Assembly (NCBI GenBank): GCA_902779165.1
Contig: CACZAN010000013.1
Location: 1-64,000 of the forward strand
DNA from: an uncultured Bacteroidales bacterium
GTDB taxonomy: Bacteria > Bacteroidota > Bacteroidia > Bacteroidales > Bacteroidaceae
DNA length: 64,000 nt
Direction: 5' to 3'
Shown: one piece after another, positions 5,822-51,059 of the stretch
Position numbering within the stretch: position 1 is the first letter of the stretch
How the letters are laid out: each line of letters begins with the position of its first letter
Notes under the pieces: model-generated
The model's database searches: none
What the model was told of the DNA's origin: nothing
Seen by the model: only the letters and a program-made list of their open reading frames with translations
Translations under genes and position numbers: made by a program

Positions 5822-5884
5822 TGTTGTTATGTTTTTAGGGTTATTGAATATTTATGTGAGCAAGTGGGGTGAATGTATGGTTTG

Positions 5885-6850: not shown

Positions 6851-6909
6851 TGGCTTGTTTTTTCCTTTTATGTCAAAAGATGATGCTGGTGACCTTAGCT
6901 TCACATTAT

Positions 6910-8465: not shown

Positions 8466-8482
8466 AACTGCTGGGAGAGGAG

Positions 8483-8512
8483 GCTCGGCGACGGAATCGC
8501 CGAGCGCTATCG
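8483..8512. repeat. REP-like palindrome (family 2) between purC and ubiE
   Basis: A 9-bp perfect stem GCTCGGCGA / TCGCCGAGC encloses loop CGGAA, followed by GCTATCG. It is the intergenic sister of the copy inside the RAYT gene (1071-1100). Being between two co-directional genes it could also act as an mRNA processing or stability hairpin. Confidence 0.75.
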
Positions 8513-8517
8513 GGATA

Positions 8518-11350: not shown

Positions 11351-11463
11351 TCTGTTAATGAATCTAAAAAAATCGGAGGCGCTTAAACCTTCTTGTTACA
11401 CGAGTGTCATAAAGATGTGATCACACAAAAAATGATACATTCGTAACAAAAACTTATACTAAA

Positions 11464-11982
11464 ATGAAAAAGACAATAATACTTACAGCATTGATCGCCT
11501 TCCTTTTCGGCACCATCAATACCATCAGTGCTCAGGACGATAGTCGTCGTCAGGAATTTATGGCTCGTCAGACAGAGCGCCTTGTCAAGAATCTGAAACT
11601 TGACGGCGACAAGAAGATACAGTTCGAAGCCATCTACAAGAGATATCAAGAAGAACTCGCTGCTACCCGTCAGCAACAGGCCCGCCAAAGAGACGATGAT
11701 AACAACAAGAACCTCTCTGACGAGGAGGCAACCGCCAAACTTACTGAAATCTTCGCCCGTCAGGCAGAACAGATACAGCAGCAGCAGCGTCGTTTGGACA
11801 TCCAGCAGAAGTATTGTGCAGAATTGTCAGCGATTCTCACTCCGCAGCAGTTGTTACAGGTCTTCCAGCCGCAAGGCCGGCAGGGTGGCCGTCAGGGACA
11901 AGGAGGTCGTGGAGGCTTCGGTGGAGGTCCTCGTGGCGGCGGCTTCGGCGGTGGCGGTGACTTCGGAGGCCCCGGTTTCTGA
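11464..11982 (+). CDS. Exported helical Spy-like protein with Gly-rich tail
   Basis: A cleavable signal peptide (cut after ISAQ, about residue 24) is followed by a Gln/Arg-rich helical region with periodic hydrophobics and the motif LTPQQLLQVFQ near 128, reminiscent of the LTxxQ motif of Spy/CpxP periplasmic proteins. The last 35 residues are a Gly-Arg-Phe tail. This points to a small periplasmic coiled protein, possibly chaperone-like; the similarity is weak. It stands alone, with a hairpin terminator about 160 bp downstream. Confidence 0.6.
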   Translation: MKKTIILTALIAFLFGTINTISAQDDSRRQEFMARQTERLVKNLKLDGDKKIQFEAIYKRYQEELAATRQQQARQRDDDNNKNLSDEEATAKLTEIFARQAEQIQQQQRRLDIQQKYCAELSAILTPQQLLQVFQPQGRQGGRQGQGGRGGFGGGPRGGGFGGGGDFGGPGF

Positions 11983-34100: not shown

Positions 34101-37100
34101 GCGGTGTGACCTGTCAGCCGTACGAGGGTGAGCGCGTGACAAAGTGGCATCAGCCCGGAATGGTGCTTGACGTGGCCACCATCCCTGCCGACAAGCCCAG
34201 AATATGGATTGAGCAGCCTGTGGTGAGCAATGTGCCGTTCGACGAGCCTGCTCGCTTTGTGCTGCACATGGCCAACGAGACCGACTATCCTGAGCGAGCC
34301 ACGCTGAAGTTCAACTACTTCCTGGAGGCTGGCAGTAATCCCAATGGTGCCAGAGTATGCGTGGACGGAGCGCCTCTCACAGGCGCCGGTGTGGATCTGG
34401 TGCTGTGGCCGGCCATCGGAAGCGACGGCAAGCACAATGTGTTTACCAAGGAGATTACCGTCTATCCCAGCAAGGCGTTCGACTATGAGGACATGGCCAT
34501 CTGTCTGATGGATCCCGAGGACAATTCACGTGTGTTCACACAGAAATTCTCGGCCCACTTCATCCCGACATCCGGCAAGGTGAAGGTGAGTGTGCCCAGC
34601 AACAACTGGGTGATAAACACCGAAAGCCCATTCGACGGCAAGCGCAAGGCTTACTACATGCCAGTACGCATAGAAGGCTTCGACGTGAACTGGCCCAACT
34701 TCGACCATATCGAACTGCAATACAAGCTCTCCACTCAGGGCGACAACGACTGGGTGAACGTATGCTCATACTATCAAGACAGGGAACTGCAGAAGAAAGC
34801 CAGCGGTGTCACCGATACGATACCAAGTTCGGGCGTCATCGTGGCTCCGTTCTATGGCGAGGTAGACCCGATAGAGCAATACTACGACATCCGTGCCGTG
34901 ACCTTCTGCCGCCATGCCGGCGGCTACCTGACGGGGGCCTCAGAGGTGCTGAAAGGCATCAAGGACACCCGCAGGCCGGAAACCTTTGGAACGCCCGAGC
35001 CTACCAATGGCATTTTGGGCATTGGCGACGACATCCTAATAAAGTTCTCGGAGCCTATTGCGGGCAACTACCTGCGTGGAATCAACAATTTCGAAGTGTT
35101 GGGTACGCTGATGAGCAACGACATCTCGACATCAACATCGCTGAGCTTCGATGGAAATGCCGTCGCCGGCACGCAGGGCGAACGTAACCTGATGGGTAAG
35201 AGCTTCACAGTGGATATCATGCTGAATCCGGCTATCGACCAGCGCGAGATGACCGTGTTCTCGCATGGCGGCGACGAGAAGGGGCTGCGCTTCGGAATTA
35301 CTGCCGACCGCAGGCTATCGGCTACCATCAACGGCGAGACGCTGGTATCAGACTCCATCGTGGCATTCAACAATATGCTGCATCAGGTGGCCTACGTGCT
35401 TGACCAAAGCGGCGAGACGACAACCGTGAAGTTCTACGACGGCAATACGCCTATCGGCAAAAAGGAACTGGCAGAACGCTATGAAGGCGCTACATCGGGC
35501 ATCATCTTAGGTGCGGACTTTGACTATTCAGAAGATTTACGTTATAAGGGCGAGATGCTGGAGTTCCGCCTATGGAACCGCGCTTTGACGGGCAGCGAAC
35601 TCTTGAGCTACGGCCAGAAAAAACTCTCGGGCTACGAGACGGGACTGCTGGACTACTACCCGATGAACGAAGGCGAAGGCAGCTGGGCCTACGACAAGGC
35701 TCCGGGAAGCATGGATCTCTGGCTGGCAGGCACCAGCTGGAAGCGTCCAGCCGGCATCTCAATGGAAATCAAGGGCGACAAAGGACTGTGCATAAAGCCA
35801 GACAAGTTCGTACGCAGCAAGAACCACGATTTCACCCTGACCTTCTGGTTCCACACGAACGACGAGAACGCCACTCTGTTCTCCAACGGCGAAGCCAATT
35901 ACGGTCAGGCCGACCAGCTCAATATCGGTATAAAAGACAGTATACTCTATGTGCGTTCGCAGGGCTTCGAGAGGAAAATATCGGCCTTTGTATCAGAAGG
36001 CAGCTGGCACCACTTCGCCATGACGGTGTCGCGTTCGCAGAACGTCAGCAACGTCTATGTGGACAAAAAGCTTGTCGAGTCATTCCCTGCTGACAGCGTG
36101 GGCGGTATCATGGGCAACGACATCACACTGGGTGCTACCTTTGTGGACAAGGGCAAGCATACCAACGTGATGAAGGGGCACATCGACGAATTGGGCCTGT
36201 TCTCAAGCGTACTGCCTGTGAACCTCATCAAGGAGTATTCGAACCACACGCCACTCGGCACCATGAGTGCGCTGCTGGCTTATCTGGATTTCGGACGCTC
36301 GGAGAAACTGGACAATAACCAGCAGCATCTTGAGCCGACAGGTATCAGCCTGAAACGCTACGTTGACTCGCTGGGTAAGTTAGAGGAACGCCGCGATACA
36401 CTGCTGTCCGATGAAGAGGTGAAGGCCTTGGCTGCGCGCGACTTCTATGCTCCGATGGTCAGCAACTCGCAGATGGATAACCTGCGGTACAGCTACGTGG
36501 CCAACGACAACGAGTTGTATGTCAATGTCAACGAGCCCGACTTCCTGATAGAGAAGACCAACATCTACGTCACCCTCAAGGAAATTCCTGATTTGCAGGG
36601 CAACCTGATGGCATCGCCCGTCACGCTGAACCTCTACGTGTATCGCAATCCGTTGCGCTGGGATGTGAAGCGCATCGAAAAGGATGTGCGCTATGGTGAG
36701 GGCGTGACCTTCGAGGCCACGGTGAAGAATCTGAGCGGTGTGACGCAGGACTTCAAGTTGGAAGATCTGCCGTTGTGGATCAACGCTTCACAGACACAAG
36801 GCGTACTTGATGCGCTGGACGAGCAGACCATCACATTCACCGTCAGCGACTATATTAATATAGGTACATACAACGAGCAGATAGCTCTTATTGGAGACAA
36901 TATGATGTCGGAACCGCTGCCTATCACGCTGCGTGTGCGTGGCGACGAACCTGACTGGACGGTTCCTGACCGCCTGAAAAAGAACAACCAGACAATGATG
37001 ATGGTGGCACGTGTGAAGATTGACGGTGTGGTGGCCAGCTCGAAGGAGGACATTCTGGCTGTGTTTGACGATAAACAGCAGGTTCTGGGTGTGGCTCATA

Positions 37101-38353
37101 TTGAGGTCAACGACAATGCCAACGCCAACGAGGCACTGGCCTATCTGACCATCTATGGATATAATTTCCCCAATGGCACAGGGCCCACACTGAACTTCCG
37201 CTTCTTTGACGCTTCATCAGGCAACGTTTACAGCGTGACGCCAGCCGACAGCACAACCTATAACTTCCAACAGGATGCCATCGTAGGCACTGATGCTAAC
37301 CCCGTAGTGCTGCTGAATAACTACAACTACATGCAGGCGCTGAAACTGAAGACGGGATGGAACTGGGTAAGCTTCTACGTGATTCCGAAGGAAGGCACGA
37401 CGCTGGGACAATTCCTGAACAGTATGTCGAAGTGGGAGGTTGGCGAAGTGATTACGGTAGTCAACGGTACGGAGACGAGGGACTATTACTGTCGTGAGAA
37501 CGCGAAAGCTGCCAATGGTAAGATGTGGGATAACGAAGATGATCCTATCACCATCCATCCCGAACAGATGTATAGCATCTACTCGAAGAGCGACAAGACC
37601 ATCTATCTGGAAGGTGAATTCGCTCGCCGCTACATCACTGTCCATAAGGACTGGAACCGCGTGGGCTATAACTCAATGATTAACTTGCCTATCTCTCAGG
37701 CTCTGGCCGACTACTTGGAAAAGGCACAGGAGGGTGACGTGGTGAAATCGCAGGACGGATTCGCCATCGCCAGCCAGAGTGCTACGGGACTGGTCTGGAA
37801 AGGCAACTTGCAGTATATGGAGGCAGGCAAGGGCTACATGTTCAAGCGACAGGCCGACAGCGAAGTACAGTTCCTGTATCCACTCTACTTCGATGACTCA
37901 CGCTACAGCAGCACCAGCGAAAGCCGTGCTCCGAGACGCACCTCTGTCAACACCGCAACGACCATGAACATCGTGGCTGCGGTGGATGGTGTCGAGACTG
38001 AGAAGGGCGACCGTCTGGTAGTGTTCTGCGGCGCAGAACGAATAGCAGAAGCTACGGCCGACGATGAGAAGAACTACTATCTGAACATCGGCAGCGACTT
38101 CAACAGCAGCGATGCCATGACCTTCATGATAGAGCGCGACGGCGAGCCTATTGCTATGACAGGCAGCTCCATCAGCTATGCACCCAACAAGGTTCTCGGC
38201 ACGCCCGACAATCCTACCGTCATCAGTTTCGTTTCTATTGACCAGATGCCTAACGACGGCAAGTGGTACACAGTTGGCGGTATCGTGATTGGTGAGAAGC
38301 CAAAGCAGCGTGGTGTGTATATCCACAACGGCAAAGCTGTAGTGGTGAGGTAA
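28196..38353 (+). CDS. Giant secreted surface protein with FN3-like, CarboxypepD_reg-like and LamG domains, 3385 residues
   Basis: A signal peptide (cut after STKA, about residue 29) leads into beta-rich modules. FN3-like domains lie near 310-420 and 845-925, a GLUG-like segment near 575-680 (SGGFIGRQMYGELN), and carboxypeptidase-regulatory-like domains near 940-1110 (SGNVFYDTSSIPVPGVSF). Two LamG/concanavalin-type jelly rolls lie at about 2325-2500 and 2510-2690 (HDFTLTFWFHTNDEN, GSWHHFAMTVSRSQN). Near 2935-3040 and 3260-3350 are two copies of a domain (VDGVETEKGDRLVVFCG) that is also the body of the next lipoprotein. Two GWNWVSF-like repeats lie between. The tail WYTVGGIVIG...RGVYIHNGKAVVVR resembles a type IX sorting signal. 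Likely a cell-surface adhesin or glycan-binding scaffold; no catalytic motif seen. Confidence 0.75.
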   Translation: MRKTNNQTNLLGRLFLLVLLLSVSLSTKADDYLEKESNYTAMLWGNDKLQIKLPTQNDITGAFNRGVTDGRVYVTIDGGERQLLLWWDCNTHYSDLSAAKVFHANQPGRFNLMGTAYGVKSDITKDDGTVMYFLKPDAEDGDHYTTTVEWTVPRIYRGHRLKIEVWCQIDDATSSWFIPKGQKNPSSFYVMGTVDMPEAGEASVTLTDPMLATGRDHANEIMLSYSFVVNKIYSATLHYTDAVTNKQYTQTLSTSKKVDFAYLPANRPWKDIHIKASVLDVQTKTDNPNDKVDIESEKFSSSMLHHPRGLSAKLEENGFVTLNWQVDDPDQGDIYEGDFFEIQRNLMGATDDDDPYWKTISMEVSYKNNQKDYSFVDETLIDQYEGKEVTYRVRRSVSSMWQWINSSTYAQYLMSEIIYLPRIAGATVSRTKQWNDESHIAKFDLLLSTSDGLVVYNDEDLEAARQKILDGEIAQDKIVIPIRNAADWDRCAKAVEMNIRKPNIVLMYDVKLTRDSKMIGSESSPFAGTFYGNGHTLEIDFFNKADYTAPFRYVEDATIKDLHITGRIESEYKFMGGLIACVYNRSGNPTKIYNCRSSVSIETDYSDDTSSGGFIGRQMYGELNIFYCLFDGRFSFTRGSSNKNHSNGGFIGWKDDTSDRAYIRNCLFAPIEISTGYDNCATFSRAKDLSSVTLVNCYYTQTYGSETNGANDCNGVSAKVLAGYLNDYGVYWEIKDDKVVPVVSEHYQLPVAVWDQRAKLKLRINMHGEKGVESTIVDISDNDEAINHRFFTYELSRKCVDYSFDLLQIRGSSPLSIVGYDKDTLVVHVYKFEGNNTDYSFNNMNRVENLKWEKKQSSVVLTWDTSGGESDFYRVLRRKHTTQEDAEWTDTIATNLTLQQYEDISTQIQVNYDYCVQSVLQCEGTHITQDICSNAACETTGKIEGYIRLADGTSMGGQTVICEPVDIPGTSSEYKVISDDSGYFVFDKLPIYFGPDGKVQGEYHVSVMTSGSGGKYTGPNEQGIVSFNRNVNWKQEFNFYMDTYFIYSGNVFYDTSSIPVPGVSFLLDGKLMNDASNQLITTDTQGAFALSIPRGEHSVQAVKDGHTFANNGYLLNPDAREGEDKTRYNFVNNVSSIYIWDSTTVVLRGRVVGGDIEGSRPLGHSLSTNNLGDSLKIVMQLEGDNASYIFRDPKNESLRSTSYKVDFGSAHADTTQVTKTRRSITIRPDAKTGEYELRVHPAKYKITEVSAQGYATLFQNGQVGQTLDLTFNVGGDTCEYNRIYHAIPDVEVTQYNPTGEKYFGVKWLTAQDNIGNKSNVNLVYYTKVTPEAKDSIVHYSFGYPVFMAGSPYGFMLQACEKYYWNNDPSKKVDIVKLDQRGKIIIKNALTTDSKTAQWESDLDEDGGCDYIFTPDNATFTMEGDNALKTFDITLLYDGTYYDVKPFYGNILRGYVMATKAKPEGRKAIVAGKPQLWDILRDPPGGSSTSYIKEGSKLSYGYSIDVTAAAGFTVKTTTGTGVDSYKGYVLAPNGYGGTTGTLDKSKSKTGIDLKFEFNFGHSWNWSYGMDITERIQTKSGQKWVAGKADLFIGTTESFIVQDAIAVRVVPDSMYQIVKLHEGGTYEAVDNNGQVVTKVKVPVGTTKVLAQGTDDTGKPIYLVRDEVMSMSPTVTSTFVHSQHYIENELLPDLFKIRNSLILPKGTDVTKAKALADSRGYATYISNVDADDKAFGVDYTVVRPNNETTGDSIKALNQEILAWVGFLAKNEEEKLSVVPTDLVKRYDFDGAANIQYSENFTMGKTMSRYLRYPGVTGLGNLFAATGPLAIIMSTLEEKLKKEGGSIKADPVPYIDYSDVFKHGIDLEVSGSTWETQWGIILNINASDKYNSSESHSKEVGFTLAASSKSSLTVDVYRTGTEYTIDENTNYFNKITLETLSKVRYGTLTPPMMTFASFTNEKVYSNFVFRTIGGVTCQPYEGERVTKWHQPGMVLDVATIPADKPRIWIEQPVVSNVPFDEPARFVLHMANETDYPERATLKFNYFLEAGSNPNGARVCVDGAPLTGAGVDLVLWPAIGSDGKHNVFTKEITVYPSKAFDYEDMAICLMDPEDNSRVFTQKFSAHFIPTSGKVKVSVPSNNWVINTESPFDGKRKAYYMPVRIEGFDVNWPNFDHIELQYKLSTQGDNDWVNVCSYYQDRELQKKASGVTDTIPSSGVIVAPFYGEVDPIEQYYDIRAVTFCRHAGGYLTGASEVLKGIKDTRRPETFGTPEPTNGILGIGDDILIKFSEPIAGNYLRGINNFEVLGTLMSNDISTSTSLSFDGNAVAGTQGERNLMGKSFTVDIMLNPAIDQREMTVFSHGGDEKGLRFGITADRRLSATINGETLVSDSIVAFNNMLHQVAYVLDQSGETTTVKFYDGNTPIGKKELAERYEGATSGIILGADFDYSEDLRYKGEMLEFRLWNRALTGSELLSYGQKKLSGYETGLLDYYPMNEGEGSWAYDKAPGSMDLWLAGTSWKRPAGISMEIKGDKGLCIKPDKFVRSKNHDFTLTFWFHTNDENATLFSNGEANYGQADQLNIGIKDSILYVRSQGFERKISAFVSEGSWHHFAMTVSRSQNVSNVYVDKKLVESFPADSVGGIMGNDITLGATFVDKGKHTNVMKGHIDELGLFSSVLPVNLIKEYSNHTPLGTMSALLAYLDFGRSEKLDNNQQHLEPTGISLKRYVDSLGKLEERRDTLLSDEEVKALAARDFYAPMVSNSQMDNLRYSYVANDNELYVNVNEPDFLIEKTNIYVTLKEIPDLQGNLMASPVTLNLYVYRNPLRWDVKRIEKDVRYGEGVTFEATVKNLSGVTQDFKLEDLPLWINASQTQGVLDALDEQTITFTVSDYINIGTYNEQIALIGDNMMSEPLPITLRVRGDEPDWTVPDRLKKNNQTMMMVARVKIDGVVASSKEDILAVFDDKQQVLGVAHIEVNDNANANEALAYLTIYGYNFPNGTGPTLNFRFFDASSGNVYSVTPADSTTYNFQQDAIVGTDANPVVLLNNYNYMQALKLKTGWNWVSFYVIPKEGTTLGQFLNSMSKWEVGEVITVVNGTETRDYYCRENAKAANGKMWDNEDDPITIHPEQMYSIYSKSDKTIYLEGEFARRYITVHKDWNRVGYNSMINLPISQALADYLEKAQEGDVVKSQDGFAIASQSATGLVWKGNLQYMEAGKGYMFKRQADSEVQFLYPLYFDDSRYSSTSESRAPRRTSVNTATTMNIVAAVDGVETEKGDRLVVFCGAERIAEATADDEKNYYLNIGSDFNSSDAMTFMIERDGEPIAMTGSSISYAPNKVLGTPDNPTVISFVSIDQMPNDGKWYTVGGIVIGEKPKQRGVYIHNGKAVVVR

Positions 38354-39967: not shown

Positions 39968-40196
39968 GCTCCTGTTCTACGGCATGTTCTATGCGGCTCA
40001 AGAAGAGGCTATTGTACGCAGCACCATAGGTGACAGCCTGTATAATGTCATTCACGAGAAGACAGGCGTTGAGCCGGGAATGTCGCACCACTACTACGAG
40101 ATTATGCGTGCCGACACATCCAGCGCCGCCACCGTGGAATACTACAAACAACTGGCCATAAAGTATCACGAATGCTTCGAACATATTAACGACTGA
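39936..40196 (+). pseudogene. Likely 5'-truncated gene of unknown function
   Basis: The frame encodes DELLFYGMFYAAQEEAIVRS...KYHECFEHIND, a helical, soluble-looking protein I do not recognise. Its frame opens inside the remnant of the lipoprotein signal peptide, so its own start has probably been lost; Met at 39984 is a possible new start. The next small gene overlaps its stop codon by one base (TGATG), indicating that the two were once a coupled pair. Confidence 0.45.
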
Positions 40197-40366
40197 TGAG
40201 TACCGTTTACGAGGTGAGGTGTCACGAGACGGGCGACGGCAGCGACTACCTCATCAGGGCTTTCCAAACCCTACAGGAAGCCGAGGCGTATATCCGTCGG
40301 CGCAACGAAGAACGTCCGCAAGACGAACTCTACGAGCATTGGTACGTTAACATGAGTTCAGTATAA
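40196..40366 (+). CDS. Small 56-residue protein coupled to the preceding fragment
   Basis: The start overlaps the previous stop (TGATG). It reads MSTVYEVRCHETGDGSDYLI and continues with a helical FQTLQEAEAYIRRRNEE segment. The end (NMSSV and the TAA stop) is supplied by the end of the composite repeat (ATGAGTTCAGTATAA), so the original C-terminus may have been replaced. Not recognised; the tiny two-gene arrangement is compatible with a decayed toxin-antitoxin pair but nothing proves it. Confidence 0.45.
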   Translation: MSTVYEVRCHETGDGSDYLIRAFQTLQEAEAYIRRRNEERPQDELYEHWYVNMSSV

Positions 40367-40592
40367 GATAATGCAAAAAGTTGACGCAAATCGTCAAATC
40401 CAAGCCTTGTCGTGCTGGGAACTATACTCGGTCGTCGGAGGAACTATAGTTTGTCGTCGGAGGAACTATAGTTTGTTCGGCTTGTTCTTTCAGGGTATCG
40501 TGACACAGGGGGGAGTAGACGAGGCATATATACGTAAAGGCCGATACGTCCTGTCGTGAAAGACGATACGTCCTTTTGCAAAGAGCTATTCA
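40345..40592 (-). repeat. Composite intergenic repeat (copy B), left flank of the defence island
   Basis: This is the reverse complement of much of copy A. In order: the end motif ATGAGTTCAGTATAAG, a stub of the 145-bp module (TGCAAAAAGTTGACGC), three 22-bp units with AACTATAGTT-type cores (40409-40474), a spacer with TATATACGTAAAGG, and only two 22-bp units with core GATACGTC (40531-40574). The 145-bp inverted-repeat module is missing and the second array is shorter (2 versus 7 units). The remaining spacer to 40755 holds no gene, only the promoter noted below. Confidence 0.8.
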
Positions 40593-40721
40593 CCGTGTTT
40601 GCTTGCATATTTGAACCTCAGTTTTTGCGAGGATTGGGTGAAGATTGGCCAAAACAAGTCCTATTTTGAGCCAAAAATGTTATAAATCCGTAAAAAAGTT
40701 ACGGGATAGGAAAATAATTTG

Positions 40722-40730
40722 TATATTTGC
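40722..40730 (+). promoter_or_regulatory. -7 box of the ATPase/Toprim operon
   Basis: TATATTTGC matches the Bacteroidota -7 element and lies 25 bp before the chosen ATG at 40756. The -33 region (GTTAC near 40698) is a weak match. Confidence 0.55.
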
Positions 40731-40755
40731 AGCGGTTTTTCAAATAATTATATCT

Positions 40756-41856
40756 ATGCTGGTTAAATTTGCCGTAAAAAACTTTCGAGGTTTTGCAGAT
40801 AGGATTGAGTGGGATTTGTCCCATCCAAGTAATTACTCGTTTAATACCTACGCTATCAAAGATGGCGTCGTTAAGAATGGTATTATTTATGGCCCTAATG
40901 GCTCTGGAAAGTCAAATTTTGCTTTGGCTATCTTCGATATAGTCTATCATTTGACGCAAAAGTATAAGAAAGAGGACTTCTATAAAAACTACGTGTATGG
41001 AGGAGACTCAAAAGGGAAAGTGCTGTTTGAATACACCTTCAAGTTTGGTCCTCAAATTGTGGAATATAGCTACGGCAAGAATATGTTCGGCATGTTGTTT
41101 GCAGAATCATTGTCAGTCGACGGAGTGAATGTGTTTAGGCGCGAGTTTGACAAATTAGAACTTGACGAAGAGCAGTTTCCAATCAATGCAGATGCCAAAA
41201 AGAACCTTCAGGCTAATGCGAACAATATCTCCATTGTGAATTATCTGCTTACTTCTTATCCACTATCCAAGAATCACTATCTTATTCTCTTGCGTGATTT
41301 TGTTAATTCTATGTTATGGTTCCGCAGTCTCAAGGCCAATGAGTATATAGGATTAGATAATAGTATTACGCAATTAGATGAATACATTATTCAAAACAAA
41401 TTTGTAGAGGATTTTACCGCATTTCTAAATAATGTCAGTGGTCAGGACTTTATATTCGTAAAGCCTAATCCCACCGATAAACTACTTGCATGTAAATTCA
41501 AATCTGGAATTGTATTGTTTGATGATATCGCTTCTACTGGTACTCTTTCGCTAGAACTCCTCTATTACTGGCTAAAGAAGATGAACAATGCTTCATTCGT
41601 GTTTATTGACGAATTTGATGCATTCTATCACTTCAAATTGGCATATGAGGTTTGCAAGCAACTCTTCAATCTCGATTGTCAGGTGTTTACGTCATCACAT
41701 AATACTTATTTGATGACTAATGACTTGCTGAGACCGGACTGCAACTTCATTTTGCAGAACAATAAGATCAAGCCCCTACAAGCCTGCACAGAAAAAGAAC
41801 TGAGGTTTGGACACAATATCGAAAAACTATTCCGTGGAGGAGCTTTTGAGGTATGA
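40756..41856 (+). CDS. AAA/ABC-type ATPase of an ATPase-Toprim defence pair (AriA/AbiLi-like)
   Basis: This 366-residue ATPase has Walker A GPNGSGKS (residues 46-53) just after the N-terminal VKFAVKNFRGFADRIEWDLS strand typical of AAA_15/RecF-like ATPases, and a late Walker B SFVFIDEFDAFYH near 288 with a following SSHN sensor. I start at ATG 40756 because it lies 25 bp after the promoter box and gives the canonical FxxxNFxG N-terminus; an upstream start at 40645 would precede the promoter. Its stop overlaps the Toprim gene by ATGA. This pair layout is shared by PARIS (AriA/AriB) and AbiL/RloAB defence systems; which one cannot be fixed by eye. Confidence 0.75.
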   Translation: MLVKFAVKNFRGFADRIEWDLSHPSNYSFNTYAIKDGVVKNGIIYGPNGSGKSNFALAIFDIVYHLTQKYKKEDFYKNYVYGGDSKGKVLFEYTFKFGPQIVEYSYGKNMFGMLFAESLSVDGVNVFRREFDKLELDEEQFPINADAKKNLQANANNISIVNYLLTSYPLSKNHYLILLRDFVNSMLWFRSLKANEYIGLDNSITQLDEYIIQNKFVEDFTAFLNNVSGQDFIFVKPNPTDKLLACKFKSGIVLFDDIASTGTLSLELLYYWLKKMNNASFVFIDEFDAFYHFKLAYEVCKQLFNLDCQVFTSSHNTYLMTNDLLRPDCNFILQNNKIKPLQACTEKELRFGHNIEKLFRGGAFEV

Positions 41857-42686
41857 TACTATTTATATTTGAAGGTAAGGACGATAAGACTTATTTCGAG
41901 TCTATCAAACGGCTTTTCTTTCCAGAAAAGTCGGAGACCTTCGTATGTACCTATAATAGCAATATCTACTCTCTTTATACAAAACTGAAGAATCACGATG
42001 CGCTGAATGGAAAACTGGAAGTAGATACAGTCTCTGTATTCAAGGAAATCCTGACAGAAAAAGGTGACAACACTTTAAAGGACATCAGAGAAGACGAAGT
42101 TTCTGAAATCTATCTTTTCTTCGATTACGATTTCCAAGAGAATTCCAGAACGCTTGAAGAAAACAACAAGCGACTGAGTGAGATGCTTGATCATTTCACA
42201 GACGAGACAGACAATGGCAAACTTTACATTAACTATCCGATGGTAGAATCTCTTCGCTATACCAAAGAATTGCCAGATAATGATTATTGGCGCTATACGG
42301 TATCTCGCCAGAAATGTCAAGAAGAAAGTTTCAAGCATCAAGTTCACGAGTTCTCATTCTACAAGTCAAACCTGGAATATCTTGTGCTCACAATCAAGCC
42401 TGCAGACGACGAAACAAAGATTCTGCATAAGGCAGATACAGCCAAGACGAATTGGCTGCACCTTGTCACGATGAACACGAGCAAGGCCAACTATATTTGT
42501 AATGATAAGAACGAACTTCCTGAAGAAGTGAATTCACAGAAAGAGATATATGATAATCAGCTTGCCAAGTATGTAGATACAGAAGAATGCAAGATCGCTA
42601 TCCTTAATGCATTCCCAATATTCCTATTTGACTACTTCGGCAAAAAAATTGTCAGCGACAGAGAAGAAACAGACAAAACCCAATAA
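41853..42686 (+). CDS. Toprim-like nuclease partner of the ATPase (AriB/AbiLii-like)
   Basis: This 277-residue protein shows a Toprim pattern: the N-terminal strand ILFIFEGKDD (Glu7), LFFDYDFQ (Asp91, Asp93) and NYPMVESLRY (Glu132). OLD-family, RloB and DUF4435/AriB effectors share this arrangement. In PARIS, the ATPase holds AriB inactive until a phage anti-restriction protein appears, and AriB then acts on tRNA. Here the overlap with the ATPase gene (ATGA) and the defence neighbourhood support an effector role. Assignment to a specific family is inferred from motifs only. Confidence 0.65.
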   Translation: MILFIFEGKDDKTYFESIKRLFFPEKSETFVCTYNSNIYSLYTKLKNHDALNGKLEVDTVSVFKEILTEKGDNTLKDIREDEVSEIYLFFDYDFQENSRTLEENNKRLSEMLDHFTDETDNGKLYINYPMVESLRYTKELPDNDYWRYTVSRQKCQEESFKHQVHEFSFYKSNLEYLVLTIKPADDETKILHKADTAKTNWLHLVTMNTSKANYICNDKNELPEEVNSQKEIYDNQLAKYVDTEECKIAILNAFPIFLFDYFGKKIVSDREETDKTQ

Positions 42687-42688
42687 AT

Positions 42689-42904
42689 ATGAGCAACAAA
42701 GAACCTGATTACGTTTACATATTGACCTGTTCGACCTTTGGTCGCTTGAAACTTCAAGAATCCCAGTTTTCACGCGCTTATCAAGGTGCCAATTATCTCT
42801 CGTATTATGGGAATGTGATCGATATTATTGAAAAAGGACGTAAAGATTATGTAGTTTGGAAAAGAATTGTTCCAAAATTTGTTTGCTTGCAAGATAATCG
42901 CTAA
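42689..42904 (+). CDS. Small 71-residue protein in the ATPase/Toprim operon
   Basis: It starts 2 bp after the Toprim stop and reads MSNKEPDYVYILTCSTFGRL...RIVPKFVCLQDNR. It is soluble and unrecognised. Its 3' end contains the -33 box of the hsdR promoter. It may be a third component of the pair or a small regulator of the adjacent restriction system. Confidence 0.5.
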   Translation: MSNKEPDYVYILTCSTFGRLKLQESQFSRAYQGANYLSYYGNVIDIIEKGRKDYVVWKRIVPKFVCLQDNR

Positions 42905-42910
42905 ATTTGC
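42878..42910 (+). promoter_or_regulatory. Promoter of the type I restriction operon
   Basis: A perfect -33 TTTG (42878-42881), 20-nt spacer and -7 TAAATTTGC (42902-42910). It lies partly inside the end of the 71-residue gene and 21 bp before the hsdR GTG start, giving a very short leader. Confidence 0.75.
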
Positions 42911-42931
42911 GCCATAAAACTAAAGAATATC

Positions 42932-45928
42932 GTGTTTGAGAGCCAAATTGAGAATAGTTTCATACAGAAACTAACTACAGATTTGAAATATGTCTATCGT
43001 GATGATATTCACGACAGACAGAGTCTTGAGCGTAACTTTAGGGAGAAGTTTCAGGCATTGAATAAGGTGCATCTGACAGATGCAGAGTTTACTCGATTGA
43101 TGGAGGAACTTACTAATTCCGATGTTTATGCCTCATCCAAAAGGTTGCGTGAACGCAATACGTTTATGCGTGAAGACGGTACGCCACTTCAATATACTTT
43201 GGTCAATATCAAAGACTGGTGCAAAAATGATTACGAAGTCATCAATCAGTTGCGAATGAACACCCGCTATAGTTCGCATCGTTATGATGTGATACTTCTG
43301 ATTAATGGTTTGCCTCTTGTGCAGATTGAATTGAAGACACTCGATGTCAGTCCTCGTCGTGCTATGCAGCAGATAGTTGACTATAAGAATGACGTTGGCA
43401 ACGGATACACCAATTCGCTGCTTTGCTTCATGCAGATGTTCATTGTCAGCAACAAAACAAACACTTACTATTTTGCTAACAACAATAGAACTCACTTCAA
43501 TTTTAATGCTGCCGAGAACTATTTGCCGGTCTATCAATGGGCTGATGAGAAGAATAAGAAGATAACCAATCTTGACGACTTCTCCGATGTATTCCTGACA
43601 AAGTGTAAGTTGGGTGAGATGATTAGCCGATATATGGTACTTGTTGCCAGCGAACAGAAGATATTGATGATGCGTCCCTATCAGATTTATGCTGTAAAGG
43701 CAATCATAAATTGTATCAATGAGAATCGTGGTAACGGCTATATCTGGCATACAACGGGTAGCGGTAAGACACTCACCTCTTTCAAGGCTGCAACGCTGTT
43801 GAAGGACAATCCTGAAATAGACAAATGTCTGTTTGTAGTGGATCGTAAAGATCTTGACAGACAGACACGTGAGGAATTCAACAAGTTCCAAGAGGGTTGC
43901 GTGGAAGAGAACACCAATACTGATGCATTGGTGCGCAGAATGTTGTCGGAAGACTATTCCGATAAGATTATCGTGACCACTATTCAGAAGTTAGGTATTG
44001 CTTTAGACCCGCAGAACCGTGCGAACTATCAGAAGCGTTTGCTTCCTGTAAGAGATATGCGGATGGTGTTCATCTTCGACGAGTGCCACCGTTCGCAGTT
44101 TGGCGAGAACCATAAGGCCATTAAAGAGTTCTTTCCCAACTCTCAGTTGTTTGGCTTTACTGGAACGCCCATCTTTGAGCAGAATGCATCCTATACACAG
44201 ATAACTGGTGAGGAGGCACAATACAAGACGACAGAAGATGTCTTTGAGAAGGAACTGCATGCCTATACTATCACCAATGCCATTGACGACAAAAACGTGC
44301 TGCGTTTCCATGTGGACTATTTTAAGTCTGATGAGGACGATAATGTTATTGGCATTGCGAAGAAACAGGCTATCGTCAGAACGATTCTTCAAAAACATAA
44401 CAACGCCACCAATGAGCGTCGTTTCAATGCACTCTTTGCAACGGGTTCAATCAATGAGGCCATAGAGTATTACCAGTTGTTTAAACGGATACAAAAAGAT
44501 CGCCAGATGATGGACGAGTCCTTTGAACCTTTAAATATTGCCTGTGTGTTCTCGCCGCCAGCCGAAGGAAATAAGGATATTATGCAGATTCAGGAGGATT
44601 TGCAGCAAGAGCGTATAGACAATGAGAAAGAGCCTGACCAGAAAAAGGCAGCACTCATGGCCATCATAGATGATTATAACAAACAGTATGGCACGAACCA
44701 TTCTGTAGCTGAGTTTGATGCTTACTATCAGGATGTTCAGAAGCGAATTAAGAGCCAAAAATACACCAATCAGGATAATCCACATAAAAACAAGATAGAT
44801 ATTACGATTGTGGTGGATATGCTGCTGACGGGTTTTGACTCCAAGTATCTGAATACACTCTATGTGGATAAGAACTTGAAGTATCATGGACTAGTGCAGG
44901 CGTTCTCCCGTACCAACAGAATCTTAAACGATACAAAACCATACGGAAACATCCTCGATTTCAGAGGACAGCAAGATGCTGTTGATGAGGCTATCGCATT
45001 GTTCTCTGGCGAAAAGAATGGAGATGTTGCTCGTCAGGTATGGCTCGTTGAACCAGCTGCTGTCATCATTCAAAAGTTTAATGAAGCAGTCCGAAACTTA
45101 CAGAACTTCATGAATCTGCACAATCTTGAATTTAAGGCAGATGAAGTTGCGAACCTCAGAGGTGACGAGGCGAAAGCTGGCTTTATCAATTATTTTAAGG
45201 AGGTGCAGCGATATAAAACACAACTTGATCAATATACGGATCTTATTGTTGTTGATGACAATGAAGACGCAGATGTGGTGTCAGAGTCAACAGCCGCTTA
45301 TGGCTTTACTGATGATACTATGCGTGCTTTCCGTGGTGCATACCTTGACATAGCCAAGCAACTTAAGACAAAACGCGAAAAGAACGATACACCAGTCTCT
45401 GCTGAGATTGAGGATTTAGATTTCGAGTTTGTCCTGTTTGCATCGGCTCTGATAGACTATGATTACATCATGGAATTGATAAGTCATTATGTGGGTGCTC
45501 CCTCTATGCAGAAGATGACAAAGGAGCAGTTGGTCAACCTGATTTGTTCCAGTGCCAATCTCATAGATGAGCGTGAGGACATTATCGACTATATTGACGA
45601 CTTGGATGCCAAAGGCGTGAATGGCAAGACAGAAAAGGAAATAGAACAAGGCTACGAGCTCTTCAAAAAAGACAAGTTTACTAAAGCGATATCTTCCATT
45701 GCCGAAAAGCATCATTTGGATATTGAAGCCGTTCAAGCTTTTGTCAATGAGATTGTGGAACGAAGAATCTTTGACGGAGAGAAACTTTACGATCTAATTG
45801 CCCCTCTGGAATTAGGTTGGAAAGATCGTGCCAGAAAGGAAGAGGAGCTGATGAAGGACCTGATTCCTTTATTGAAACGAATGGCAGGAGGTCAAAAGAT
45901 TTCTGGACTTTCTGCGTATGAAGAATAG
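42932..45928 (+). CDS. hsdR: Type I restriction enzyme, R (motor/nuclease) subunit
   Basis: HsdR translocates DNA and cuts it when HsdM/HsdS find unmodified sites. The 998-residue protein has a PD-(D/E)xK nuclease core near the N-terminus (RYDVILLI with Asp119, then QIELK with Glu133 and Lys135), superfamily 2 helicase motif I TGSGKT (275-280), motif II DECH (382-385), motif III FTGTP and the late motifs LLTGFDS and QAFSRTNR. The C-terminal helical part contacts the methylase. The start is GTG at 42932 (FESQIENSFI), as in close relatives. Length is full. All motifs are intact, so it should be active. Confidence 0.96.
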   Translation: MFESQIENSFIQKLTTDLKYVYRDDIHDRQSLERNFREKFQALNKVHLTDAEFTRLMEELTNSDVYASSKRLRERNTFMREDGTPLQYTLVNIKDWCKNDYEVINQLRMNTRYSSHRYDVILLINGLPLVQIELKTLDVSPRRAMQQIVDYKNDVGNGYTNSLLCFMQMFIVSNKTNTYYFANNNRTHFNFNAAENYLPVYQWADEKNKKITNLDDFSDVFLTKCKLGEMISRYMVLVASEQKILMMRPYQIYAVKAIINCINENRGNGYIWHTTGSGKTLTSFKAATLLKDNPEIDKCLFVVDRKDLDRQTREEFNKFQEGCVEENTNTDALVRRMLSEDYSDKIIVTTIQKLGIALDPQNRANYQKRLLPVRDMRMVFIFDECHRSQFGENHKAIKEFFPNSQLFGFTGTPIFEQNASYTQITGEEAQYKTTEDVFEKELHAYTITNAIDDKNVLRFHVDYFKSDEDDNVIGIAKKQAIVRTILQKHNNATNERRFNALFATGSINEAIEYYQLFKRIQKDRQMMDESFEPLNIACVFSPPAEGNKDIMQIQEDLQQERIDNEKEPDQKKAALMAIIDDYNKQYGTNHSVAEFDAYYQDVQKRIKSQKYTNQDNPHKNKIDITIVVDMLLTGFDSKYLNTLYVDKNLKYHGLVQAFSRTNRILNDTKPYGNILDFRGQQDAVDEAIALFSGEKNGDVARQVWLVEPAAVIIQKFNEAVRNLQNFMNLHNLEFKADEVANLRGDEAKAGFINYFKEVQRYKTQLDQYTDLIVVDDNEDADVVSESTAAYGFTDDTMRAFRGAYLDIAKQLKTKREKNDTPVSAEIEDLDFEFVLFASALIDYDYIMELISHYVGAPSMQKMTKEQLVNLICSSANLIDEREDIIDYIDDLDAKGVNGKTEKEIEQGYELFKKDKFTKAISSIAEKHHLDIEAVQAFVNEIVERRIFDGEKLYDLIAPLELGWKDRARKEEELMKDLIPLLKRMAGGQKISGLSAYEE

Positions 45929-45958
45929 TATGATAATACTTAAATTGAACTTTATATA

Positions 45959-46603
45959 ATGAATATGAATGACAAGGCTATACCACTTTTAAGATTTCCT
46001 AAGTTCATAGATTCAGGATCATGGGATGAAGCGTTATTGGGAGATATCGCTTATGTTTTTCAAGGATTTGGTTTTCCAGAAAGAATGCAAGGAAAACACG
46101 AGGGTAAATATCCTTTTTATAAAGTGAGCGACATCTCATATACTGTAATGAATGGGAACATGTTTATTGATGAGGCCTTTAATTATATAGATGATGATGA
46201 TGTTGCAGTTTTGAAAGCTGAGCATATTCCTATAGGAACTACAATTTTTGCTAAAATTGGAGAAGCTATAAAACTTAACAGAAGGGTTATTACAACAAAA
46301 GAATGTTTTATTGATAATAATACAGCAGGGATTAAAGCAAAATCAGGTTGTGCAGATGATCTGTTTCTTTATTATGTAATGTCAAATATTAATTTGTCAG
46401 ATTACGCTGGTGGTGCTGTTCCTGCTGTTAAAAAGTCAACAATTGAACATATCCCTATATTAATTCCTTCTCTATCAGAGCAAAAGAAAATAGCAGAGTT
46501 TCTTTTTTCTATTGATGAGAATATCTCTTTTACATATCAAAAACTCTATCAAATGAGAGAATACAAAAAGGGAATGATGCGACAACTATTTCCAAATAAA
46601 TAA
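45959..46603 (+). CDS. hsdS: Type I restriction specificity subunit, half-size (single target-recognition domain)
   Basis: HsdS chooses the DNA target. Normal HsdS is about 400 residues with two recognition domains; this one has 214 residues and one. The domain begins WDEALLGDIAYVFQGFGF and ends with the conserved helical spacer SLSEQKKIAEFLFSIDENI. A half-size HsdS can work as a homodimer and would then recognise a symmetric split site. Alternatively it is a truncation, with a second hsdS elsewhere. The coding sequence is much more AT-rich than the hsdR gene, which suggests separate acquisition. Confidence 0.85.
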   Translation: MNMNDKAIPLLRFPKFIDSGSWDEALLGDIAYVFQGFGFPERMQGKHEGKYPFYKVSDISYTVMNGNMFIDEAFNYIDDDDVAVLKAEHIPIGTTIFAKIGEAIKLNRRVITTKECFIDNNTAGIKAKSGCADDLFLYYVMSNINLSDYAGGAVPAVKKSTIEHIPILIPSLSEQKKIAEFLFSIDENISFTYQKLYQMREYKKGMMRQLFPNK

Positions 46604-46611
46604 AAAATATT

Positions 46612-47745
46612 ATGGAGTTAAAAGAGATTGCTAAAACAATTAAGGAAGCGAAAGAAAACATCTTTCTAATATACGCTTTTAATGGGACTGGAAAGACAAG
46701 ACTTTCTAAAGAATATAAAGACCTCACAAAGGATGTTGATGGCAACCATACTGGGGTATATTATAATGCATTTAGTGAAGATTTGTTTAGATGGAACAAT
46801 GATGAGCCTAATAAAAATGAAAACATTAGATTAGAGGTCGTTGATAGTAGCCTTTCCACATTGTATCAATATTTTGGTGATGAAGGCCCAATAAAAGATA
46901 AGCTTAAAATATACCAACCAAATTATGACTTCCGCTTTAAGTTTATCAATGATAATCAAGAAAAAGGAATTGAATACATTTGGTTTTTTAAGGAAGATGA
47001 TAAAGATACCTGGATAAAGATATCAAGAGGAGAGGAACGAATATTCATTTGGTGTTTTTTCTTGGCATTGTTTGAGATAGAGGATTTTGAAGATGCGCAT
47101 AAAGATTATATCTTCATCGACGATCCAGTTTCCAGCTTAGATGATAATAATCTTTATCTTACTGCTATGACTCTATTTGAGTTGTTAGAGAAAACCGTAG
47201 ATAGTGACAAAAAAATAATAATTTCAACACATCATATTGGTTTATTCTCACTTCTAATAGATTGGCTTGGAAAGGGAGAACATTCTATTAAATTCAAAAA
47301 GAAAGAAATCGTACAACACAAAAAGGAATCAAAAGACGGAATCGAAATTTATGAAGTGATAGAAGAAGAAAACCTGTATTGTATAAAAATATTAGAAAGG
47401 ATTGGTGAGGATTATTTTCTAAAAAGTAGATATAAAGGCGCATGGTTATATCATTTACTTTTAATGCAATTATTGAAACAAGTTATTGATGAAGATGATT
47501 TATATTTATATCATTTTGGTATATTAAGACAGATACTTGAAATGGTAGCGTCATTTTTAGGTGAAGGACGATTTGGCTTTGTTTTGCATGAGATTGGTGA
47601 ACCTAATGAAACTGCAGATAAAATTAATGCTTTTTCTCATAAAAGAGTATATGATAGTGTAAATGCTAAACTAACGGCTGACAATAAAGAAACTTTTATT
47701 CGTGTTTTCAACAATCTAATCCATAAGTACAATTTTAAGATATAA
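46612..47745 (+). CDS. prrC: PrrC-like anticodon nuclease embedded in the type I restriction operon
   Basis: This 377-residue protein has an ABC-type ATPase with Walker A FNGTGKT (23-29), a signature-like ISRGEERIFIW near 138, Walker B YIFIDDPVSSLDD near 167 and an H-loop STHH near 205. In the C-terminal third it has RQILE (Arg306, Glu310) and FSHKR (His343). Known PrrC uses Arg320, Glu324 and His356, so the spacing matches almost exactly. Its length (PrrC: about 396) and position between hsdS and hsdM also match the PrrC arrangement. PrrC stays silent inside the restriction complex and cuts tRNA-Lys when a phage peptide disables restriction. Strongly AT-rich. RloC is less likely, since it is about twice as long. 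I am fairly sure of the family, not of the tRNA target. Confidence 0.78.
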   Translation: MELKEIAKTIKEAKENIFLIYAFNGTGKTRLSKEYKDLTKDVDGNHTGVYYNAFSEDLFRWNNDEPNKNENIRLEVVDSSLSTLYQYFGDEGPIKDKLKIYQPNYDFRFKFINDNQEKGIEYIWFFKEDDKDTWIKISRGEERIFIWCFFLALFEIEDFEDAHKDYIFIDDPVSSLDDNNLYLTAMTLFELLEKTVDSDKKIIISTHHIGLFSLLIDWLGKGEHSIKFKKKEIVQHKKESKDGIEIYEVIEEENLYCIKILERIGEDYFLKSRYKGAWLYHLLLMQLLKQVIDEDDLYLYHFGILRQILEMVASFLGEGRFGFVLHEIGEPNETADKINAFSHKRVYDSVNAKLTADNKETFIRVFNNLIHKYNFKI

Positions 47746-47747
47746 TT

Positions 47748-49376
47748 ATGACAACAAGTCAACAACAAGAACTCGGAAAAACTCTTTGGGAAATCGCCAA
47801 TAATCTGCGTGGCGCAATGATGGCAGATAGTTTCCGAGATTATATGCTGTCATTCCTTTTCTGGAAGTATTTGTCAGATAGTTATATCAATGCTGCCAAA
47901 AGGGAGTTAGGTCCAGATTATCCAGAAATTCCTAAGGATGTTTTGGTTGCTATGGGTGTAGCAACTCCTTTACAGATATGGTATAAGGAAAATCCCAACG
48001 ACACGTCTTTGTTTGAAAAGCAGATGAAACGTAAAGTTCATTATGTCATTGAGCCACAATATTTATGGGATAATATCGTGGAATTGGCAAGAACTCAAAG
48101 TGACAAATTGCTTCAAACATTAGAAGAAGGTTTTAAATATATAGAGAATGATTCTTTTGACAGTTCATTTAAAGGTCTGTTTTCGGAGATTAATTTGAAT
48201 TCAGAGAAATTAGGCAAAAACTATACAGAGAGAAACGAACTACTGGCTAAGGTCATTACGACGATTGCGAATGGATTGAAAGAGTTTTCTGCTGATAATG
48301 ATTCGTTGGGTGATGCATACGAATATCTGATAGGTCAGTTTGCTGCTGGGTCTGGTCAAAAAGCTGGCGAATTCTATACGCCGCAGATGATCTCAACAAT
48401 TCTTTCACGCATTGTTACTTTGGATTGTCAAGACCCTGCATCTGGCAAGAAGAACAGAATTAACCGTGTACTGGACTTCGCTTGCGGTTCCGGTTCGTTG
48501 CTGTTGAATGTGCGTAACCAGATGGGAGAAAGTGGAATAGGCAAGATTTATGGTCAGGAGAAGAATATCACGACCTATAACCTTTGCCGCATGAATATGT
48601 TGCTGCATGGGGTGAAAGATTCTGCTTTTGAAATACATCATGGTGATTCACTCGCTAATGACTGGGACATCTTGCAAGAAGAGAATCCTGCCAACAAGAT
48701 AGATTTCGATGCAGTCGTAGCCAATCCGCCTTTTTCTCTACGTTGGGATCCAACGGAAGATACTGCCAACGACTTCCGCTTTAACCGTTATGGTGTAGCA
48801 CCACGTTCTGCTGCAGACTTTGCTTTCCTTTTGCATGGCTTTCATTTCTTGAGTGGAGATGGAACGATGGCTATCATTCTCCCTCACGGCGTGTTGTTCC
48901 GTGGTGGCAAAGAGTTGGCTATCAGAAAGAAACTGCTTGAAGATGACAACATTGATGCGGTCATTGGCTTGCCTGGCAACCTATTCTATTCAACGGGTAT
49001 TCCTGTTTGTATCATTGTGTTGAAGAAGTGTCGTAAGAATGAAAAGATTCTCTTCATCAATGCCAGTTCCGATGAGCACTACGAAAAAGGAAAACGTCAA
49101 AACTATTTGCGTGATGAGGATGTCAATAAGATAGTTGAAACTTACCAATTCCGCAAAGAAGAGTTACGCTATTCCCGTCAGGTTTCTTTGCAGGAAATTA
49201 AAGATAATGACTATAATTTGAACATCACCCGCTATGTCAGTCTTGCACAAGAAGAAAAGCCCATCGACCTGCAAGAAGTACATGATAAGTTGGTAGAGAT
49301 AGAAGCAGAGATCGTCAAGGCTCGCGATAAGCATAATGAATTTCTGAAAGAATTAGGTCTTCCCCCATTAGTTTAA
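47748..49376 (+). CDS. hsdM: Type I restriction system adenine methyltransferase
   Basis: HsdM, with HsdS, methylates adenine in host sites. The 542-residue protein has the N-terminal helical HsdM_N domain, then AGEFYTPQMIS near 206, SAM motif I DFACGSG (243-249) and the catalytic NPPF (326-329), typical of N6-adenine methylases. It starts 2 bp after the prrC-like stop, and its own stop overlaps abiH by one base (TAATG). Gene order R-S-ACNase-M-abiH differs from the common M-S-R order. Confidence 0.96.
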   Translation: MTTSQQQELGKTLWEIANNLRGAMMADSFRDYMLSFLFWKYLSDSYINAAKRELGPDYPEIPKDVLVAMGVATPLQIWYKENPNDTSLFEKQMKRKVHYVIEPQYLWDNIVELARTQSDKLLQTLEEGFKYIENDSFDSSFKGLFSEINLNSEKLGKNYTERNELLAKVITTIANGLKEFSADNDSLGDAYEYLIGQFAAGSGQKAGEFYTPQMISTILSRIVTLDCQDPASGKKNRINRVLDFACGSGSLLLNVRNQMGESGIGKIYGQEKNITTYNLCRMNMLLHGVKDSAFEIHHGDSLANDWDILQEENPANKIDFDAVVANPPFSLRWDPTEDTANDFRFNRYGVAPRSAADFAFLLHGFHFLSGDGTMAIILPHGVLFRGGKELAIRKKLLEDDNIDAVIGLPGNLFYSTGIPVCIIVLKKCRKNEKILFINASSDEHYEKGKRQNYLRDEDVNKIVETYQFRKEELRYSRQVSLQEIKDNDYNLNITRYVSLAQEEKPIDLQEVHDKLVEIEAEIVKARDKHNEFLKELGLPPLV

Positions 49377-50485
49377 TGAATAGAATCGTACTCATAGGCA
49401 ACGGCTTTGATTTGGCTCATGGTCTCAAGACCAGCTATAAAGACTTTATTTGTTGGTACTGGAAACAATGGGGCTATCGTTTGTTACATGGGTTAGGCAA
49501 AGAAGAGTCTGACGGATTGTGTTCATTTGTAATTAAAGATGGAATCAATGTTCCCAACTGGGCTTCTGCTTTTAAAGGATGGTACTTTAAGAGAGATAAT
49601 CCATTTGTTCCATGGGATGAAACCGATGCATTCTCTGAAGCTATCAAAGATAGAAGATTATGTGAATTCACTTTAATTAGCCCACTCCTTCAACGAATAT
49701 GGAAACAATTTTTATTAGGATGGGTAGATGTTGAGAATGAATACTTTTCGTTACTAAGAGAAGAAAAAATGTCAATGGACAAAGGTATTGTTTATCCAGA
49801 CTTCAAAGAATTGAATGACCATTTAGATATACTGCGTAATAGTCTTGTTCAATACCTAAAAACTGAAAGTGAAAAGGGAGCTCCTGAGATTGCTGAGATT
49901 AAAGAAAAAATATATCACCCTATAAAAGAGAGGGAGATATCAGTAGCCTTCAAGAGATTACTTGATAAAACTACATTAGGAGATGTGGATCCCAATGTAA
50001 TCATGCTTCTCAACTTTAACTACACTAAAACGCCTGAACAATATGCGGCTAAATCATCAAAAGTTCAAGTCAATTACATTCACGGGAAACTTGATTGTCC
50101 TGAGAGTGTAATATTTGGTTATGGAGATGAATTGGACGATAGCTTCAAGAAACTACAAAGCATGAATGATAATGAGTGCTTACGTCATATTAAATCCATA
50201 CGCTATCTTGAATCTGATAATTATCGAAAGTTATTGGAATTTATCGAGTCTGATACTTTCCAAGTTGTTATAATGGGTCATTCATGCGGAAACTCTGACC
50301 GCACTTTATTAAATACACTCTTCGAACATAAGAATTGTATATCCATCAAACCCTATTTCTATAAAAAAGAGGATGGAACAGACAATTATCTTGAATTGAT
50401 TCAGAATATTAGTAGGAACTTTACCGATATGAAACTCATGCGAGATAGGGTTGTTAATAAAACATTTTGCGAACCACTTACTTAA
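49376..50485 (+). CDS. abiH: AbiH-family abortive infection protein
   Basis: This 369-residue protein starts with the AbiH signature IGNGFDLAHGLKTSYKDF (residues 7-24). Family members give phage resistance by abortive infection; their biochemical activity is not established. Conserved later blocks include MLLNFNYTKTPEQY near 201, HGKLD near 224, and VVIMGHSCGNSD near 298, consistent with a Rossmann-like fold. The start overlaps the hsdM stop, so it is translated as part of the restriction operon. Confidence 0.88.
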   Translation: MNRIVLIGNGFDLAHGLKTSYKDFICWYWKQWGYRLLHGLGKEESDGLCSFVIKDGINVPNWASAFKGWYFKRDNPFVPWDETDAFSEAIKDRRLCEFTLISPLLQRIWKQFLLGWVDVENEYFSLLREEKMSMDKGIVYPDFKELNDHLDILRNSLVQYLKTESEKGAPEIAEIKEKIYHPIKEREISVAFKRLLDKTTLGDVDPNVIMLLNFNYTKTPEQYAAKSSKVQVNYIHGKLDCPESVIFGYGDELDDSFKKLQSMNDNECLRHIKSIRYLESDNYRKLLEFIESDTFQVVIMGHSCGNSDRTLLNTLFEHKNCISIKPYFYKKEDGTDNYLELIQNISRNFTDMKLMRDRVVNKTFCEPLT

Positions 50486-50558
50486 TAATAGAGAATATGG
50501 GCAAAACAGTAACAACATTCTCTACGTAATAATTTGTTTATTTATTTTGCAAAAGAAT

Positions 50559-50897
50559 ATGGCAAAAAGAAGAGAAATAAGAAACAGCACGGCAGAGTTC
50601 CTGATATTCCAGATAGAGGGAAAGGGACAGGGAATAGAGGTGTACTATAAGGACAAGACGGTTTGGTGTACCCAGAAGGCGATGGGAATGCTGTTTGACT
50701 GCTCAACGGACAATGTGGGACTTCACCTGAAGAACATCTTTGCAAGTGGTGAACTGGTTAAGGATTCAGTTACCGAGAAAATCTCGGCAACTGCCCCTGA
50801 TGGGAAAAACTACATGACGCAGTTCTACAACCTCGATGCCATCATCAGCGTGGGTTATCGGGGAGTAAGATGGGACATCTCAGCATGGTGCTATTGA
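50559..50897 (+). pseudogene. RhuM-family gene fragment (N-terminal part)
   Basis: It reads MAKRREIRNSTAEFLIFQIE...VWCTQKAMGMLFDCSTDNVGLH...YNLDAIISVGYRG and stops at residue 112. RhuM proteins are about 330 residues and continue after SVGYR with a conserved NSKRATQFR block, which is missing here. The break is followed by unrelated sequence with a short remnant reading LLIEPMDYVRLIPIKTENYF, so this looks like a rearrangement junction at the edge of the defence island. Confidence 0.75.
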
Positions 50898-51059
50898 TAG
50901 AGCCGATGGACTATGTTCGCCTTATTCCTATAAAAACGGAGAATTATTTCAAAAACACTACACACTACACGAATTTGTGTTTATAGGCTCACTTTCTGCC
51001 TGTTTATGGGCAAAAAAGGGAAAAGTAGTGTAGTGTGTAGTGTTTTTTTGATGGCATTT

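Follow-up and report, generated by a model that had tools for sequence, protein, structure and literature searches.

The window analysed here, a 64,000-nucleotide stretch of a contig from an uncultured Bacteroidales bacterium, carries on its + strand an open reading frame (ORF; positions 46612–47745, ATG start, 377 amino acids (aa)) whose product is, as judged from its sequence, a PrrC-family anticodon nuclease encoded inside a type I restriction operon. PrrC is the textbook guard directed against phages that disable restriction, and the window gene most probably encodes a latent anticodon nuclease of this type, guarding a type IC-like restriction enzyme. Gene order and active-site signatures divide the sampled PrrC family into three branches, and the branch of the window protein, branch A, is widespread.

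The PADLOC PrrC model PDLC02360 matched the protein over its full length (residues 2–376, E = 4.3e-93) and Pfam AAA_13 matched it with E = 4e-14, so that the profile search proposed as a check in the original prediction bears out the PrrC-like identity put forward there. The ABC-type ATPase motifs that it had read in the protein are present and conserved in our alignments: AFNGTGKT, SRGEE, FIDDPVSSLD, and STHH, which we take to be Walker A, the signature, Walker B/D-loop, and the switch, respectively. Within AFNGTGKT, N24, G27, K28, and T29 are invariant in all 102 aligned rows of homologues, the window protein included. Its size falls inside the range of 341–416 aa given for PrrC, without a zinc-hook insert (PMC2610378). 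The same source describes PrrC orthologues as invariably linked with type Ic systems, and the window gene lies in a type IC-like operon, in which an hsdR with an EcoR124_C domain (Pfam, E = 3.5e-59; also TIGR00348, E = 3e-120, and PADLOC REase_I) is followed by hsdS, prrC, and hsdM. The predicted placement between hsdS (Pfam Methylase_S in one stretch, E = 5e-15) and hsdM was thus correct.

The catalytic residues were located by alignment with an Escherichia coli “anticodon nuclease” of 396 aa from an M-S-PrrC-R operon (WP_032251799.1). R306, E310, and H343 share alignment columns with its R320, E324, and H356 and are invariant in 102/102 rows, as is H281 (H295 in E. coli). The shared columns and this invariance show that the triad spacing, which the original prediction had stated accurately, is not due to chance. 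The distance from Glu to His is 33 residues in the window protein vs. 32 in E. coli PrrC; within branch A it is 35 in 72 of 89 rows and 33 in two, one of them the window protein. In the predicted structure, R306 and E310 lie one turn apart in helix 300–315, and H343 ends helix 332–343.

The homologues split into branch A (the window plus 88 rows), branch B (the E. coli type, 8 rows), and branch C (5 rows). These labels were assigned by eye on the alignments before a tree was built; in the tree each branch forms one side of a split with a support of 100/100. The tree took 52 of 103 rows, including one extra branch-C row (L124), its root position is not known, and the tool warned of long branches meeting between A and B. 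The window protein is 46–55% identical to the 88 other branch-A rows, 34–39% to branch B (8 rows), and 35–40% to branch C (6 rows). Record titles place branch A in Bacteroidota, Pseudomonadota, Bacillota, Spirochaetes, Chloroflexi, Planctomycetota, and other phyla, with many metagenome assemblies among them. The loci were collected by protein similarity and not by genomic context, 80 of them being the best 80 of 548 relatives. Branch A comprises 93 loci vs. 89 rows in alignment A4 (L029, L047, L088, and L093 left out) and branch B 11 loci vs. 8 aligned rows (L016, L017, and L018 left out); L030 and L043 are identical, and L088 and L100 nearly so. We met no description of a three-branch split in the PrrC literature consulted in part, which is not to claim that the split is unpublished.

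Operon order tracks the PrrC branch. Genes were recognized by similarity to 16 reference proteins and written as order strings (C for prrC) in which repeats are collapsed and other genes may intervene; the gap between hsdR and hsdS is wide in several loci. Branch A has R-S-C-M in 82 of 93 loci, S-C-M in 10, and C-M in one, the 11 partial orders being due to short flanks or a contig end; hsdR was seen downstream of prrC in none of the 93 loci. In branch B hsdR is the next gene downstream in 11/11 loci; branch C reads S-C-M in 5/5 loci with short flanks. The R-S-PrrC-M order that the original prediction had called unusual is therefore the ordinary one for branch A, and a system with the genes HsdR, HsdS, PrrC, and HsdM has already been cloned, tested, and published, namely PrrC170 of Klebsiella quasipneumoniae (PMC11555353). 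We accordingly rejected an unusual gene order.

Within the genus the distribution of PrrC is patchy: 4 of 139 genomes match the PrrC model at E ≤ 1e-20, two with branch A (the window and L004), one with branch B (L002), and one with branch C (L037). The window prrC is the sole match to the model in its own genome assembly (86% complete). A single-sequence scan of genome contigs (75 stretches) revealed no relative. A search of phage records gave no match, nor did a search of E. coli DNA with one branch-A gene, a weak test as it was run in DNA mode. Among the plasmid matches listed (40 of 113 for the window protein and 12 of 113 for a Pseudomonas branch-A protein), the best identity to the window protein was 34.6% and identities to the Pseudomonas protein were 35–37%; given the much higher identity of branch-A rows to the window protein, no branch-A protein was seen among the plasmid matches listed.

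The predicted model of the protein (predicted local distance difference test, pLDDT, 90.6) has a Rad50-like ATPase head. The C-terminal domain, modelled alone, appears weakly HEPN-like in fold, in that its top four structural matches are all HEPN proteins. Foldseek with either model, protein or C-terminal domain, returned nothing at E 0.001. Sequence searches of the PDB found no PrrC chain, the best matches being a ribosomal protein (E 0.16) and Rad50-type proteins (E 0.004–0.04), and Pfam assigned no family to the C-terminal domain of the window protein and scattered weak families to that of other homologues. The Rx4-6H motif that defines the HEPN superfamily (PMC3710099) is incomplete, with His343 in place, Asp336 seven residues before it (H-7), and no Arg from H-5 to H-7.

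The missing arginine, kept at H-7 in 13/13 aligned rows of branches B and C and absent in 72 of 89 branch-A rows (kept in 17), could point to a decayed or non-catalytic relative that merely modulates the restriction enzyme. We consider this quite unlikely, as the ORF is intact, its ATPase motifs are conserved, R306, E310, H343, and H281 are invariant, and a branch that extends across many phyla would hardly retain a dead active site. RloC, too, has a Rad50-like head and the arrangement R-x3-E...H of the triad (PMC2610378), and the window protein might be an RloC-like effector that works without the restriction-modification enzyme, for example on DNA damage. Several observations make this very unlikely: prrC has a fixed place in the hsd operon, and four of the five weak matches in the genus lie in open frames of 746–807 aa, which are RloC-sized, as the window gene is not. 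RloC proteins measure 658–897 aa and contain a coiled-coil/zinc-hook insert (PMC2610378), and an RloC identity was rejected on size.

For a PrrC-type guard, the silencing, the trigger, and the nuclease activity would be those of the E. coli prototype EcoprrI (PMC3014915). By this analogy, PrrC would be held silent by the HsdR/M/S complex until a phage product blocks restriction and the Rad50-like ATPase head changes state. The head would then free the C-terminal HEPN-like domain, and Arg306, Glu310, and His343 would cut the anticodon loop of a tRNA, stopping translation for phage and host.

Which tRNA would be cut may depend in part on a motif that branch A mostly lacks. Asp287 of E. coli PrrC is the presumed contact for the modified wobble base of tRNA-Lys, and its substitutions alter the handling of that base (PMC3014915). 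This residue sits in a GD[ST]-like motif that occurs in 8/8 branch-B and 5/5 branch-C rows vs. 1/89 branch-A rows; the window protein has Lys275 in the Asp287 column and Gly in the next. Because the motif and the Arg at H-7 are absent, tRNA-Lys cannot be assumed to be the target. The absence of the motif lowers the likelihood that the protein cuts tRNA-Lys and leaves its membership in the PrrC family untouched; on the sequence, tRNA-Lys is a possible target and not an implied one. The host genome has a tRNA-Lys(UUU) gene with the loop CUUUUAA (among 30 of 46 tRNA matches), and a codon test for the target tRNA found no Lys enrichment in prrC.

The near-absence of the motif from branch A, together with the proposed wobble contact of Asp287, argues for the same latent nuclease having lost its wobble-reading loop in branch A, so that its target would be another tRNA or a broader set than tRNA-Lys. 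RloC, in which the tRNA-recognition region of PrrC is not described, prefers a different substrate (PMC2610378), and a single restriction operon in a Halomonas metagenome-assembled genome (MAG; L095, 8001–11900) bears both a branch-A PrrC (8001–9074) and a branch-C-like PrrC (10713–11900; 52% identical to L023). The C-like protein, however, itself has Glu instead of Asp in the motif (GETP replaces GDTP). Asp stands in the Asp287 column in 6 of 89 branch-A rows and one column later in 41, and a one-residue loop shift could possibly supply the acid in many of these proteins, although not in the window protein with its Lys-Gly. PrrC170, moreover, cuts tRNA-Lys at 35% identity to E. coli PrrC, a value compatible with branch A or C. 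A changed target is thus conceivable but not what we expect. Doubtful, in our view, is the wider proposal that branch A consists of phylum-crossing anticodon nucleases guarding restriction-modification enzymes with their own tRNA rule, which would have kept the triad, mostly lost the Asp287 motif and the HEPN Arg, and cut another tRNA or site, some operons pairing them with a second PrrC branch. If true, branch A would have its own rule of tRNA choice, and paired PrrC operons would hit two tRNA pools at once.

The restriction enzyme that the window PrrC would guard has a half-size HsdS. This protein (214 aa) is 56% identical to residues 213–421, the second half, of the 425-aa HsdS of Rikenella microfusus, whereas the upstream S gene has 390–457 codons in 78 of 93 branch-A loci. 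A half-size S (222 aa) also occurs in two near-identical MAG loci (L088 and L100), and short S frames are found in L028 and L033. Truncated S proteins of EcoDXXI function as homodimers whose targets are interrupted palindromes (PMC3874165), which makes a working enzyme with a half-size HsdS plausible by analogy. We rejected a neighbouring hsdS partner that could invert or vary in phase, as repeats of at least 20 bases within 40000–51000 are at most 86% alike; the genome has three other Methylase_S matches, on contigs C17 and C33, in 393-aa open frames. Between hsdR and the half-size hsdS, L088 and L100 carry a 626-aa gene (5467–7347) that is GHKL ATPase-like by eye and, in its L088 copy, has no PADLOC match.

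The operon genes are tightly packed on the + strand, from hsdR through hsdS, prrC, and hsdM to an AbiH-family gene (Table 1). The last is a probable rider of the restriction operon, and AbiH is also found downstream of hsdM in L049 and L108.

Table 1. Coordinates of the restriction operon and of the PrrC features within the window
Feature	Position	Strand	Remarks
hsdR	42932..45928	+	Type I restriction subunit, EcoR124-type C-terminal domain, type IC-like
Half-size hsdS	45959..46603	+	214 aa, single Methylase_S (target recognition) domain
prrC	46612..47745	+	377 aa, predicted latent anticodon nuclease, branch A
Walker A, AFNGTGKT, residues 22–29	46675..46698	+	Direct reading
C-terminal HEPN-like nuclease domain (predicted), residues 276–377	47437..47745	+	Modelled alone
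R306-Q-I-L-E310, first part of triad	47527..47541	+	Same columns as R320/E324 in E. coli PrrC
H343, catalytic histidine	47638..47640	+	Same column as H356 in E. coli PrrC
hsdM	47748..49376	+	Type I N6-adenine methyltransferase subunit; TIGR00497, E = 1e-112
AbiH-family gene	49376..50485	+	Pfam AbiH, E = 1e-29; one-base overlap with hsdM stop

Other genes around the operon also resemble defence genes. Two genes upstream of hsdR (40645–42686) correspond to a candidate defence pair, PDC-M12A (E = 3e-132) and PDC-M12B (E = 5e-71), and are more weakly similar to AbiLi/AbiLii; in L119 an M12A-like gene is placed between hsdR and hsdS. In two Klebsiella plasmids (L124, 1386–5173; L155, 1934–5721), hsdR and hsdS are separated by two extra genes, and a PrrC-like gene precedes hsdM. 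The extra genes of L124, the one of the two loci that was aligned and a member of branch C, are annotated as a TrlF-family AAA-like ATPase and an RNA-binding-domain protein, and bear other names in L155. A RhuM-like short ORF of 148 aa (50451–50897), possibly truncated, matches PDC-S05. Of the 93 branch-A loci, 7 carry a RhuM-like gene between prrC and hsdM, which in L095 follows the second PrrC, and a linkage of RhuM to PrrC/RloC is on record (PMC3710099). A 3385-aa ORF (28196–38353) lies upstream of this defence region, which is lower in guanine plus cytosine (G+C). Within the operon, G+C is 30–32% in hsdS and prrC vs. 41–42% in hsdR and hsdM. In a comparison covering the window (46000–48000) and L040–L119, with the C-like prrC copy used for L095, prrC G+C is below that of both hsdR and hsdM in 79/79 loci having all four genes, and its third-position G+C is lower in 74/79.

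Among known systems, RloC shares with the window protein the ABC-ATPase and the same triad arrangement, but it is about twice as long, has the zinc-hook insert, is rarely found in a restriction-modification operon, and excises the wobble nucleotide (PMC2610378). EcoprrI/PrrC of E. coli (PMC3014915; records L038 and L039) is closer, with an ABC head, the triad, and a type I operon in which prrC directly follows hsdS. It is 39% identical to the window protein in a pairwise global alignment, counting aligned positions only (34% in the multiple alignment), and differs in its order, M-S-PrrC-R, and in having kept the Asp287 motif and the Arg at H-7. The evidence on PrrC substrates consulted here rests on few proteins, namely E. 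coli PrrC, PrrC170, and, as unpublished results cited in PMC2610378, those of Haemophilus influenzae and Streptococcus mutans, and the target of branch A bears on whether the tRNA-Lys rule is general. PrrC170 resembles the window system in its four-gene order and diverged PrrC, and its identity to E. coli PrrC fits both branch A (32–40%) and branch C (35–38%). According to PMC11555353, PrrC170 is active against T1 and T7, its overexpression arrests growth, and tRNA sequencing identified tRNA-Lys as its target.
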